From: Pedosphaera sp.
GTDB lineage: Bacteria > Verrucomicrobiota > Verrucomicrobiia > Limisphaerales > SIBE01
Assembly (NCBI GenBank): GCA_009695265.1
Contig: SIBE01000015.1
Location: 1-32,937 of the forward strand
Direction of reading: 5' to 3'
Length of the DNA stretch: 32,937 nucleotides
A model generated the notes under the pieces. It worked only from the letters and a program-made list of their open reading frames with translations. It searched no databases and was not told the DNA's origin. Both the position numbers and the translations under genes were made by a program. Below are positions 14,971 to 20,560 of this stretch, in pieces (position 1 is the first letter of the stretch; every line of letters begins with the position of its first letter).

Positions 14971-16671
14971 GTGACTGTTCTAAGTTTGATTACTCGCCGA
15001 GGTTTTTTAGCGTTGAAAATATTCGCCGTTGCAGCACTGGCCGCTGCTGCTGCCGAGCCAAGTGATAATGCAACTCGCGCCCGCCAGTTCGTCGCCGCGC
15101 ACGAAGCCAAGATCCGACCGTTGGAAAAGGCCAGCGCATTGGCCTGGTGGAATGCCAACGTGACTGGAAAGGACGAGGACTTTAAAGCCAAAGAAGAGGC
15201 CCAAAACAAACTTGACCAAGCGTTGGCTGGCAAACAGCAATTCGCCGAACTCAAGGCAATCAAGAAAGGCAAACTCAGCGATCGATTGATCGCCCGGCAA
15301 ATCGAGGTGCTCTACTTGATGTATCTCGAAAAGCAGGTGGACCCCGAGCTGTTGAAGAAGATGACCGCCAAAGCCAACGCCATCGAACAGGCTTTTAATG
15401 TGGCGCGCGCCAAAGTGAACGGCAAGGAAATGACCGACAGCGAGGTCCGCAAGGTTCTAAAAGAGGCAAAGGAATCGGAACGCCGCAAGGCCGTGTGGGA
15501 AGCGAGCAAAGCCGTCGGTGCAGTGGTCGAGAAAGATCTCAAAGAGCTGATTAACCTCCGTAATCAAGCCGCCCGCGAGCTGGGCTTCAAAGATTATCAC
15601 GTGATGCAGCTTCACATCAACGAGCAGAGCCAGGAGCAAGTGCTGAAGCTGTTCGATCAGCTTGACCGCCTGACGCGCGAACCGTTCCGTCGAGCCAAGG
15701 CGGAGATCGACGCGAAGCTCGCCCAAAACAGCGGGGTCAAAGTGACGGATTTGCGGCCCTGGCATTATCACGATCCGTTCTTCCAAGAATCGCCCGCCGT
15801 TTTCAGCACCGATCTCGATGCGGTCTATTCCAAAGTCGATATCCTCAAGCTCTGCCGGGAATATTATGGAGGCATTGGGCTGCCCATCGAGGATGTGATC
15901 GCCCGCAGCGACCTTTACGAGAAGCCGGGGAAGAGTCCACACGCCTTCTGCACGGACATCGATCGCGAAGGCGATGTGCGAGCGCTGGCCAACATTGTGC
16001 CGAACGACTATTGGATGGGCACGATGTTGCACGAGCTTGGTCACTCCGTTTACAGCAGCAAGAATATTCCGTCCAGCGTCCCCTACGTTCTGCGGACTGA
16101 AGCGCATATCCTCACGACCGAAGGCGTGGCCATGATGTTCGAGCGCCCGGCAAAAAGCGCCGACTGGTTGCAAGCCATGGGCGTGACTGTGCCCGATCCG
16201 AAAGGCTTTAACGAGACTGGCGCGCAGATGCTGCGGAATCAGCTTTTGATTTTCTCCCGCTGGTGCCAGGTGATGCTGCGCTTCGAGAAAGAGCTTTACG
16301 GCAATCCAAATCAGGACCTGAACAAACTCTGGTGGGACTTGGTCGAACGGTATCAAATGGTCCATCGACCTGAGGGCCGCAATGCCCCGGATTACGCGAG
16401 CAAGATTCACATCGTCGTGGCGCCAGCGTATTACCATAACTACATGATGGGCCAATTATTCGCCTCGCAGGTGCATCACACGATTGCCCGCGAGGTGCTG
16501 AAGACAACGCCGAACAAGGCTCTCTACGTTGGTAAACCAGAGGTCGGCGAGTACATGAAAAAGCGGGTCTTCGTTCCGGGGAAAACGATGTCTTGGAACG
16601 CGCTCACGAAGTTTGCGACAGGGGAAGAGCTAAATCCAAAGGCATTCGCCGCGGACTTTCGGCCGGAGTAA
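14971..16671 (+). CDS. Exported M2/M3-type zinc metallopeptidase (gluzincin, HELGH)
   Basis: I chose the GTG at 14971 (566 residues), which has AGAAAGGA about ten bases upstream and begins directly with a Tat-like signal (ITRRGFLALKIFAVAALAAAAA). The ATG at 14914 would bury that signal behind 19 residues. The zinc motif HELGH is near residue 354, and a third-ligand glutamate lies in TTEGVAMMFE near 384. The long helical N-terminal half and the C-terminal HIVVAPAYYHNYMMG segment resemble peptidyl-dipeptidase A (M2) more than thimet-type M3 enzymes, but the two families share a fold and I cannot separate them by eye. It should cleave short peptides in the periplasm or outside. It follows the M28 gene by 184 bp in which I see nothing notable. 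Confidence 0.88.
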   Translation: MTVLSLITRRGFLALKIFAVAALAAAAAEPSDNATRARQFVAAHEAKIRPLEKASALAWWNANVTGKDEDFKAKEEAQNKLDQALAGKQQFAELKAIKKGKLSDRLIARQIEVLYLMYLEKQVDPELLKKMTAKANAIEQAFNVARAKVNGKEMTDSEVRKVLKEAKESERRKAVWEASKAVGAVVEKDLKELINLRNQAARELGFKDYHVMQLHINEQSQEQVLKLFDQLDRLTREPFRRAKAEIDAKLAQNSGVKVTDLRPWHYHDPFFQESPAVFSTDLDAVYSKVDILKLCREYYGGIGLPIEDVIARSDLYEKPGKSPHAFCTDIDREGDVRALANIVPNDYWMGTMLHELGHSVYSSKNIPSSVPYVLRTEAHILTTEGVAMMFERPAKSADWLQAMGVTVPDPKGFNETGAQMLRNQLLIFSRWCQVMLRFEKELYGNPNQDLNKLWWDLVERYQMVHRPEGRNAPDYASKIHIVVAPAYYHNYMMGQLFASQVHHTIAREVLKTTPNKALYVGKPEVGEYMKKRVFVPGKTMSWNALTKFATGEELNPKAFAADFRPE

Positions 16672-18836: not shown

Positions 18837-19570
18837 CCGAGGAGCAAATCAACGACCAGCGATCTGCACTCGGTTGCCCGAGTGGTGTGGAATCCGTGCG
18901 ACCATCCACTGAGTCCGATCCGCAAGCTTGCATTCCCGCAGACCCAGGGGCTCCTACAAGGCCGGAACTCCGCTCGCCGGCAGCGACGCTAATTTACCGG
19001 CCGGTCACGTATGTCGAGCGGCTTAATCTCCGTCAGCTTTTTTCGAGTCAACGGCCGCTCGAAGTAGAGCTTGGCAGTGGCGACGGCTCTTTCCTGGCTC
19101 AATATGCGCGGCTGAATCCTGATCTGAATTTTTTGGCTGTCGAACGATTGCTGGGCCGACTCCGAAAACTCGACCGAAAGGGCCTGCGAGCAGGTTTGAC
19201 TAATTTGCGACTGATCCGAATTGAGGCCTCTTACTTTGCGGAATACCTTTTGCCTCGTGAGTCAGTCCGAGCCCTGCATATCTATTTTCCAGATCCTTGG
19301 CCGAAACGGCGGCATCACAAAAACCGGCTTATCCACACTCTATTTACCGAGGTGACTCGCCAGGTGTTGGAGCCGAACGGGAAGGTTTACCTGCGGACCG
19401 ATAATGCCGATTACTTCGCCCAAATGACCGATGTCTTTCAGTCGAATTCTGCCTTTCGGATTATCGACACCCCGTCTCCGTTGAGTGGGATCAAGACGGA
19501 TTTTGAACGGGACTTTGAGGCAAAAGGAGTTCCGACCTTGCGGGCGGCTTACCAGCGCGCAGAGGGCTGA
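18833..19570 (+). CDS. trmB: tRNA (guanine-N7-)-methyltransferase TrmB
   Basis: This SAM-dependent enzyme makes m7G at position 46 of tRNA. The ATG at 18833 overlaps the FIST stop codon (ATGA) and gives 245 residues; longer versions of this frame run inside the FIST gene and are not credible. Motifs seen are EVELGSGDGSFLAQYA (SAM-binding loop), FLAVERLLGRLRKLDRK, the signature HIYFPDPWPKRRHHKNRL, and near the end KTDFERDFEAKG, the family's substrate-binding region. About 50 Pro/Ser/Thr-rich residues precede the catalytic core and are not conserved features of the family. Confidence 0.94.
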   Translation: MTEEQINDQRSALGCPSGVESVRPSTESDPQACIPADPGAPTRPELRSPAATLIYRPVTYVERLNLRQLFSSQRPLEVELGSGDGSFLAQYARLNPDLNFLAVERLLGRLRKLDRKGLRAGLTNLRLIRIEASYFAEYLLPRESVRALHIYFPDPWPKRRHHKNRLIHTLFTEVTRQVLEPNGKVYLRTDNADYFAQMTDVFQSNSAFRIIDTPSPLSGIKTDFERDFEAKGVPTLRAAYQRAEG

Positions 19571-19655: not shown

Positions 19656-20093
19656 CTAGACATCAATAACCGGGCCGCCTTCGTCCTTCCTAGGTTTTGT
19701 TCGAGACTTTCGTCCGCGTTTCACCTCGATCCGGGCATTGCTAATTCCTAACATCGAATTGGCCATCAGTGAAATAAGACTGATCACCAACCCGCCCCAG
19801 AAAGCCGCCCAGAAACTTTCGACGTGGAACGGACCGACGAGCCAGCCGACCAAATACAGGAGCAGCGCGTTGATGACTAAAGTGAACAGACCCAACGTGA
19901 GGACGAGCAAAGGCAGGGCCAGGAGCAGCATGAAAGGACGCAGAAATGCGTTGAGGATGCCGAGCAGCAGGGATGCCACCAAAAGCCCGTCGGCTGTGTC
20001 ATAATGGATACCGCTCACCACGTTGGCTGCGACGAGCACAGCCAATGTGGTGGTGAGCCAACGTTGAAGAAATGGTTTTATATCCGAGCTCAT
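19656..20093 (-). CDS. Phage holin family 4 / YvlD-like membrane protein
   Basis: This 145-residue integral membrane protein has about four hydrophobic helices: TTLAVLVAANVVSG, LLVASLLLGILNAFLRPF, LLALPLLVLTLGLFTLVINA with LLLYLVGWLVG, and FWAAFWGGLVISLISLMANS. The NAFLRPF...PL..LTLGLF...NA pattern is the signature of the phage_holin_4 superfamily. Despite the name, the family is widespread as a chromosomal gene of unknown function and is not evidence of a phage here. The C-terminus is basic and cytoplasmic in appearance (VKRGRKSRTKPRKDEG). It converges with trmB. Confidence 0.85.
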   Translation of the reverse strand: MSSDIKPFLQRWLTTTLAVLVAANVVSGIHYDTADGLLVASLLLGILNAFLRPFMLLLALPLLVLTLGLFTLVINALLLYLVGWLVGPFHVESFWAAFWGGLVISLISLMANSMLGISNARIEVKRGRKSRTKPRKDEGGPVIDV

Positions 20094-20179
20094 GCTTCTT
20101 GCAGATCGGCTGTAAGATCAAATCTTTTGGCGATCTGTTCAACTGTAAATTCTCGCTCATTAGTGACCCTCACTTTGTG

Positions 20180-20560
20180 ATGAAGCGGTCCAACACCTTG
20201 CGAGTAGTTCAGACTCATCTTCCCCCATTGCCGGACAATGTGCTGGGAATTTACTATCCGGCAATGGGGGAAGATGAGTCAGGTGTCGCCCACGGCCTGA
20301 TGGTCGTCTCAGGTCTGGAGATGATCACGGCTAAATCTTCTCATCAAACTCTAAGACGTGCAGGCGCGGTCTGTTTCGCAGCAGTGGTGCTGAAGTCTGG
20401 CTTGGAAGCCGTCACAGGCCAGGCATTTTTTACTTCGCTCCATTTCGGTCTGCTTGGCACTCCCGTTGCCGTTTGCCATGCAGGCGGAGTTCTTGGCGGA
20501 ATTGTCGCTTTTCTGAGTTGGAGAGGTCTCACCAAGAGAACAGCAGCTGGTAACGCTTAA
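20180..20560 (+). pseudogene. C-terminal half of a rhombosortase-like intramembrane serine protease, probably broken
   Basis: The frame starting at the ATG at 20180 has 126 codons. From residue 34 onward it matches what I recall of rhombosortases (rhomboid-type GlyGly-CTERM processing proteases). It has SGVAHGLMVVSG with the catalytic serine (codon 20279-20281), a helix AVCFAAVVLKSGLEAVTG corresponding to the 'lGviaKvaWEq' helix, and TPVAVCHAGGVLGGIVAF with the catalytic histidine at residue 100. The first 33 residues come largely from the inverted repeat at 20212-20280 and do not resemble the family, and the roughly 80 residues of N-terminal membrane helices are absent. The region upstream to 20094 shows no coding potential for them. 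If expressed, an alternative start is the ATG at 20264. The assignment rests on pattern memory only. Confidence 0.5.
20212..20280. repeat. Perfect 24-bp inverted repeat with 21-base loop
   Basis: The left arm 20212-20235 begins GACTCATCTTCCC and the right arm 20257-20280 ends GGGAAGATGAGTC. All 24 positions pair without mismatch, and the pairing stops at both ends. Loop 20236-20256. The right arm ends one base before the end of the putative catalytic serine codon of the rhombosortase-like remnant. It is not placed as a terminator, because no gene on either strand ends here and no T-run follows. Confidence 0.95.

Follow-up and report, generated by a model that had tools for sequence, protein, structure and literature searches.

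The question raised by this locus is how a perfect inverted repeat came to lie exactly where a gene has been broken. The window, by which we mean the whole 32,937-nt stretch of Pedosphaera sp. DNA that was analysed, belongs to a metagenome-assembled genome (MAG) of 3.1 Mb in 153 contigs that is 61% complete (G000). The repeat has two arms of 24 nt, at 20212-20235 and 20257-20280, which are 100% complementary and separated by a spacer of 21 nt; this is the longest perfect inverted repeat of the window, and three composition shuffles of the window yielded none of 14 bp or longer. Folded as single-stranded DNA, the palindromic unit reaches -30 kcal/mol (z = -9.8). The earlier note had described a perfect 24-bp repeat, and the complementarity of its arms bears this out; its length is far beyond chance.

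To the right of the repeat lies what is left of a rhombosortase gene (20279-20560, forward strand), a pseudogene corresponding to residues 135-227 of a 227-residue protein and 86% identical to its counterpart in G001, a MAG of the same genus (CAMAWP01 contigs) that served as reference relative. Its match to the profile TIGR03902 is partial (E = 6e-7, covering only profile positions 84-153 of 154), and by alignment the codon within which the right arm ends, TCA at 20279-20281, is that of the catalytic serine in the GLCGLSGVAHG motif of the intact homologue. Residues 1-134 are gone and the remnant has no whole rhomboid domain; it keeps the serine, at the joint itself, and the C-terminal HAGG motif. 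The view that a broken rhombosortase lies on the right, previously proposed from the sequence alone, is upheld by the partial profile match and the aligned serine codon. Measured against G001, dN/dS is 0.35 for the remnant, 0.12 for the FGGY kinase gene and 0.28 for the holin-like gene, values drawn from few sites, and that of the remnant is compatible with decay without being proof of it. A fused open reading frame at 20072-20560 was considered as a gene and rejected: at its start it overlaps the oppositely oriented holin-like gene, and it reads through the insertion sequence relic described below.

The insertion sequence behind the repeat

A search of G000 found 51 bp of this region (20230-20280) again, at 98% identity, on contigs C5, C146 and C72. 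Each of these matches lies no more than about 150 bp from a contig end, and the three contigs share identical terminal sequences of 145 bp. G001 holds six further near-identical ends, which are also situated at contig ends and have differing flanks. Such copies would represent a multi-copy insertion sequence (IS) whose body was collapsed by the assembler, and no intact copy was recovered because the contigs break inside the IS. On its inner side the 145-bp sequence encodes PKLPAPMLSLGKANKNRLKNPRRGRD followed by a stop; the recovered ends carry just the last 26 codons and align across 44 nt, at 82-84%, with the 3' end of IS1634-type genes from another genome (G091), one of whose transposase products matches the IS1634 transposase profile NF033559 with E = 2e-64. 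Since PKLPAPMLSLGKANKNRLKNPRRGRD aligns with the C-terminus of IS1634 transposases, the sequence common to the arms and the contig ends is, by this similarity, the right (3') end of an IS1634-family element. The 51 bp consist of the terminal 49 bp of this right (transposase 3') end, running from inside to outside at 20230-20278 on the forward strand with a 98% match to the three G000 and six G001 ends, followed by 2 bp of target. Searching a plasmid collection with the 145-bp end gave no match, searching viral contigs with a 21-bp end gave none, and a 39-bp end found solely the six G001 copies among GTDB contigs. As a separate observation, the IS on C146 borders a dispersed repeat, roughly 130 bp long (TGAAGTCGGAACTTCCCGTGTTGCGG...GTAGTCCCGGCTTCAGCCGG...), that matches more than 30 places in G001 with 75-95% identity and looks like an abundant repeat family of the genus.

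The IS1634 family, formerly the IS1549 group, has ends of the form C-----YT, target duplications of 5-6 bp and targets reported to be AT-rich (PMC2266710). Both termini of the relic read CTCATCTT, which meets this consensus, and since this terminus and the pentamer target fit the hallmarks of the family, we place the IS-derived unit at 20214-20278 (65 bp), with 20214 and 20278 as the last bases of the IS proper. In each 24-bp arm the outermost 2 bp belong to the target site and not to the IS, and they pair only because the target pentamer is itself palindromic. Judging by sequence comparison, the stem was probably 26 bp long originally and has since been interrupted by a single G-to-A change at 20256, a position at which all nine full-length IS right ends (9/9) differ from the window.

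Outward of GGGGGAAGATGAG, the next bases at right ends are TCAGA, TCTGA, CCAGA or CCCGA; among the six right ends of G001 (on C8, C47, C512, C23, C67 and C314), three continue with CC(A/C)GA and three with TC(A/T)GA. Left ends in G001, which read CTCATCTTCCCCCTAATTT, adjoin pentamers of the same palindromic type, and for two of the insertions in G000 the empty sites of G001 show a native TCAGA and TCTGA at the junction. A YCNGR pentamer was read beside IS ends in both genomes, one side of a copy at a time, and the preference of the IS for a palindromic YCNGA target is clear; YCWGR pentamers occur only about once per 115 bp. In its termini, its 5-bp target sites and the match of its inner right-end coding DNA to transposase C-termini, the element resembles other members of the IS1634 family, but its target here is a palindromic YCWGR pentamer, where AT-rich tracts have been reported for the family (PMC2266710), and the relic departs from the family further in having two right ends and neither a left end nor a transposase.

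Left ends are distinguishable from right ends: the four that were seen, all in G001, diverge from the right end after 13 bp. The left arm of the window, CTCATCTTCCCCCATTGCCGGA, equals the outer right end, matching across all 22 bp, and the sequence at 20214-20237 (reverse strand), the outer 24 bp of an inverted second right end made up of the 22-bp stem and the CA of the original stem, is likewise the same as the outer right end and differs from the left ends of G001. A search of G000, a genome 61% complete, found no left end, and looking there for partner left-end contigs via the empty sites of the relative again returned no left end and mostly short matches resembling dispersed repeats. The right-end/right-end assignment therefore relies on G001; we infer that the right end belongs together with the left ends seen there, and G000's own left end could differ. 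On the left ends of this same-genus genome, the relic is a tail-to-tail joint of two right ends with no left end. Sought in its own genome and in relatives, the arm recurs as single IS ends (on three contigs of G000 and six of G001), but no other copy of the palindrome was found.

The deletion and the genes lost

In G001 the flanks of the window lie on one contig (C34), collinear and equally oriented, with a divergence of about 5.5% on each side. The left flank aligns up to a native TCAGA (15060-15064), the counterpart of the left target pentamer of the window (TCAGA, 20209-20213), which overlaps the former stop codon of a lost sigma-54 activator gene and is of the type found beside all other IS ends. 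The right flank picks up at TCTGG (19426-19430), about 4.36 kb farther on, where it aligns with the right target pentamer of the window (TCAGG, 20279-20283), which contains the serine codon TCA. The two pentamers flanking the relic differ from each other at one base, and the right one also differs from the TCTGG of G001. Coding content and structure do, as had been noticed before, shift at one place, where an IS terminus meets the rhombosortase serine codon.

What the window lacks, going by the content of G001, is a sigma-54 activator (514 aa), a GlyGly-CTERM-like VIT-VWA protein (701 aa) and residues 1-134 of the rhombosortase, which is intact in G001 (227 aa; 85.4 bits to TIGR03902, with a cut-off of 84). 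That the relic is an IS-derived scar marking a deletion we regard as very nearly certain. Assembly or amplification might also bring distant sequences together as a chimera, a possibility raised in the earlier note, and the joint is indeed built from a repeat that breaks other contigs. However, the flanks are collinear at a distance of 4.36 kb in a same-genus genome, with similar divergence on both sides, and each breaks at a native IS target pentamer, which a random chimera would not give; we consider such an origin highly improbable.

The presence of a truncated rhombosortase means that the lineage of the window once had the cluster and then lost it. The same three genes are found together in a genome from another family of the order (G012), where the VIT protein has a glycine-rich GlyGly-CTERM-like tail. 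In three members of the window's own family (G003, G005 and G007) the holin-like gene directly neighbours the FGGY gene and the rhombosortase cluster is absent from between them, so the genus of the window may have acquired the cluster before it was lost again here. VIT/VWA GlyGly-CTERM proteins, and dedicated rhombosortases encoded beside a single target, were described by Haft and Varghese (PMC3237569). The intact relative conforms to these pairs (TIGR03902; PMC3237569) in that its VIT-VWA GlyGly-CTERM-like protein adjoins the rhombosortase, whereas in the window the pair is destroyed and the C-terminal 93 residues of the enzyme are left.

A divergent sigma-54 activator, a VIT-VWA GlyGly-CTERM-like protein and a rhombosortase make up a cluster that is conserved in the order (L126:3061-7708; G012:C137); the sigma-54 regulator, 62% identical between families, is an apparent partner of it. 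G001 itself was deposited as Akkermansia muciniphila although it comprises about 7.3 Mb; genomes of that species are under 3 Mb, and the label is probably wrong.

Origin and meaning of the palindrome

A simple insertion with one target duplication is insufficient to explain the relic, because the IS target pentamers of the two flanks are separate native sites. On balance we favour a detailed route in which the hairpin represents two outward-facing right ends of one IS1634-family IS, fused at the joint of the deletion of about 4.36 kb. The IS would first have entered the sigma-54 activator gene at its 3' end, in TCAGA. A second copy, inverted relative to the first, would then have appeared at a TC(T/A)GG pentamer within the rhombosortase gene. 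It might stem from an independent insertion or from intramolecular replicative transposition; replicative inversion generates a pair of copies in opposite orientation whose outward ends are the same. The inverted pair would finally have collapsed by deletion between the right ends at an 8-bp microhomology, GCCGGACA (20230-20237), removing both IS bodies and the intervening DNA and leaving the 65-bp palindrome, bounded left and right by canonical IS termini. The full right end holds GCCGGACA one way and TGTCCGGC the other, which makes an 8-bp stem, and two outward right ends joined at this microhomology reproduce the window sequence exactly, save for the G-to-A at 20256. We saw no intermediate carrying two IS copies in inverted orientation, and we infer both the order of events and the microhomology step. 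For Tn5, replicative inversions giving inverted copies are on record, as are deletions starting precisely at transposon ends (PMC2723962); the relic shares with these rearrangements of Tn5 and Tn10 the same end facing outward and deletion from an exact terminus, but here the bodies of the elements are gone too and a 65-bp joint is left.

The main rival, which we consider unlikely without dismissing it, begins with a single IS at the left TCAGA that made an adjacent deletion into the rhombosortase gene, either directly or with the joint inside its right target duplicate (TCA/GG, the slash marking the joint). The palindrome would be a separate product of fold-back copying, which used the 8-bp stem within the right end itself and may have taken place on an end cut by the transposase; the copy would thus have stopped at the IS terminus. 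The right end alone does form this stem, Tn5 adjacent deletions begin exactly at element ends (PMC2723962), and TCAGG is possibly the TCA of a TCAGA duplicate followed by GG of the gene, so that the difference between the relic's pentamers also fits a single insertion with a deletion starting inside the right duplicate. However, an extra special event is needed for the second arm to stop exactly at the IS terminus, and canonical YCWGR targets at both joints are more simply given by two ordinary insertions. A simple template-switch inverted duplication in place, one of three options in the earlier note, fails to account for both arms stopping at an IS terminus beside canonical targets. A single IS might instead have undergone an internal deletion joining its left end to its right, together with an adjacent deletion, in which case the left end in G000 would be nearly the same as the right. 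The search that recovered no left end of this IS from G000 is in keeping with this, but we hold it improbable, given that all four G001 left ends (4/4) part from the right end after 13 bp and the window's left arm follows it throughout. If the tail-to-tail reading is true, the left end of the IS in G000 should read CTCATCTTCCCCCTAA...; if there was an internal deletion, it should read CTCATCTTCCCCCATTGCCGGA.

Insertion of the 65-bp palindrome as a unit, as a miniature inverted-repeat transposable element (MITE), with the neighbouring deletion occurring later, is very unlikely. With MITEs the relic shares its shortness, its non-coding nature and an inverted pair of intact IS termini (perfect over 22 bp), and it has no transposase ORF and a YCWGR pentamer on either side. 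Unlike them it is single-copy (one in G000, at 61% completeness, and none in G001), lies at a deletion junction and has no matching target duplication, for TCAGA and TCAGG are not identical and the flanks represent two native sites 4.36 kb apart; on its single copy and the want of a matching duplication this candidate was rejected. What stands of the earlier idea of a miniature mobile element is the derivation from an element; the sequence is what remains of a complete IS, a scar found in one copy, rather than a miniature element in dispersed copies. The reading as a regulatory or RNA hairpin was likewise set aside, the whole sequence being accounted for by IS ends; an Rfam search around the hairpin gave no match, and G001 has no palindrome kept between intact genes, only single IS ends. 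The palindrome is non-coding and most likely without function.

That this 65-bp palindrome is transposition-competent in trans, and that collapse of inverted ISs at the subterminal 8-bp stem regularly yields IS1634-type hairpin mini-elements, would be a more far-reaching conclusion, and one that we think very doubtful. Otherwise the case is one of ordinary genome decay and mobile-element damage. It offers a view, at base resolution, of an insertion sequence erasing a small dedicated protein-sorting cluster, with a hairpin as the sole witness, and right-end/right-end scars of this kind could flag past IS-mediated deletions in MAGs, where insertion sequences usually sit in assembly gaps.
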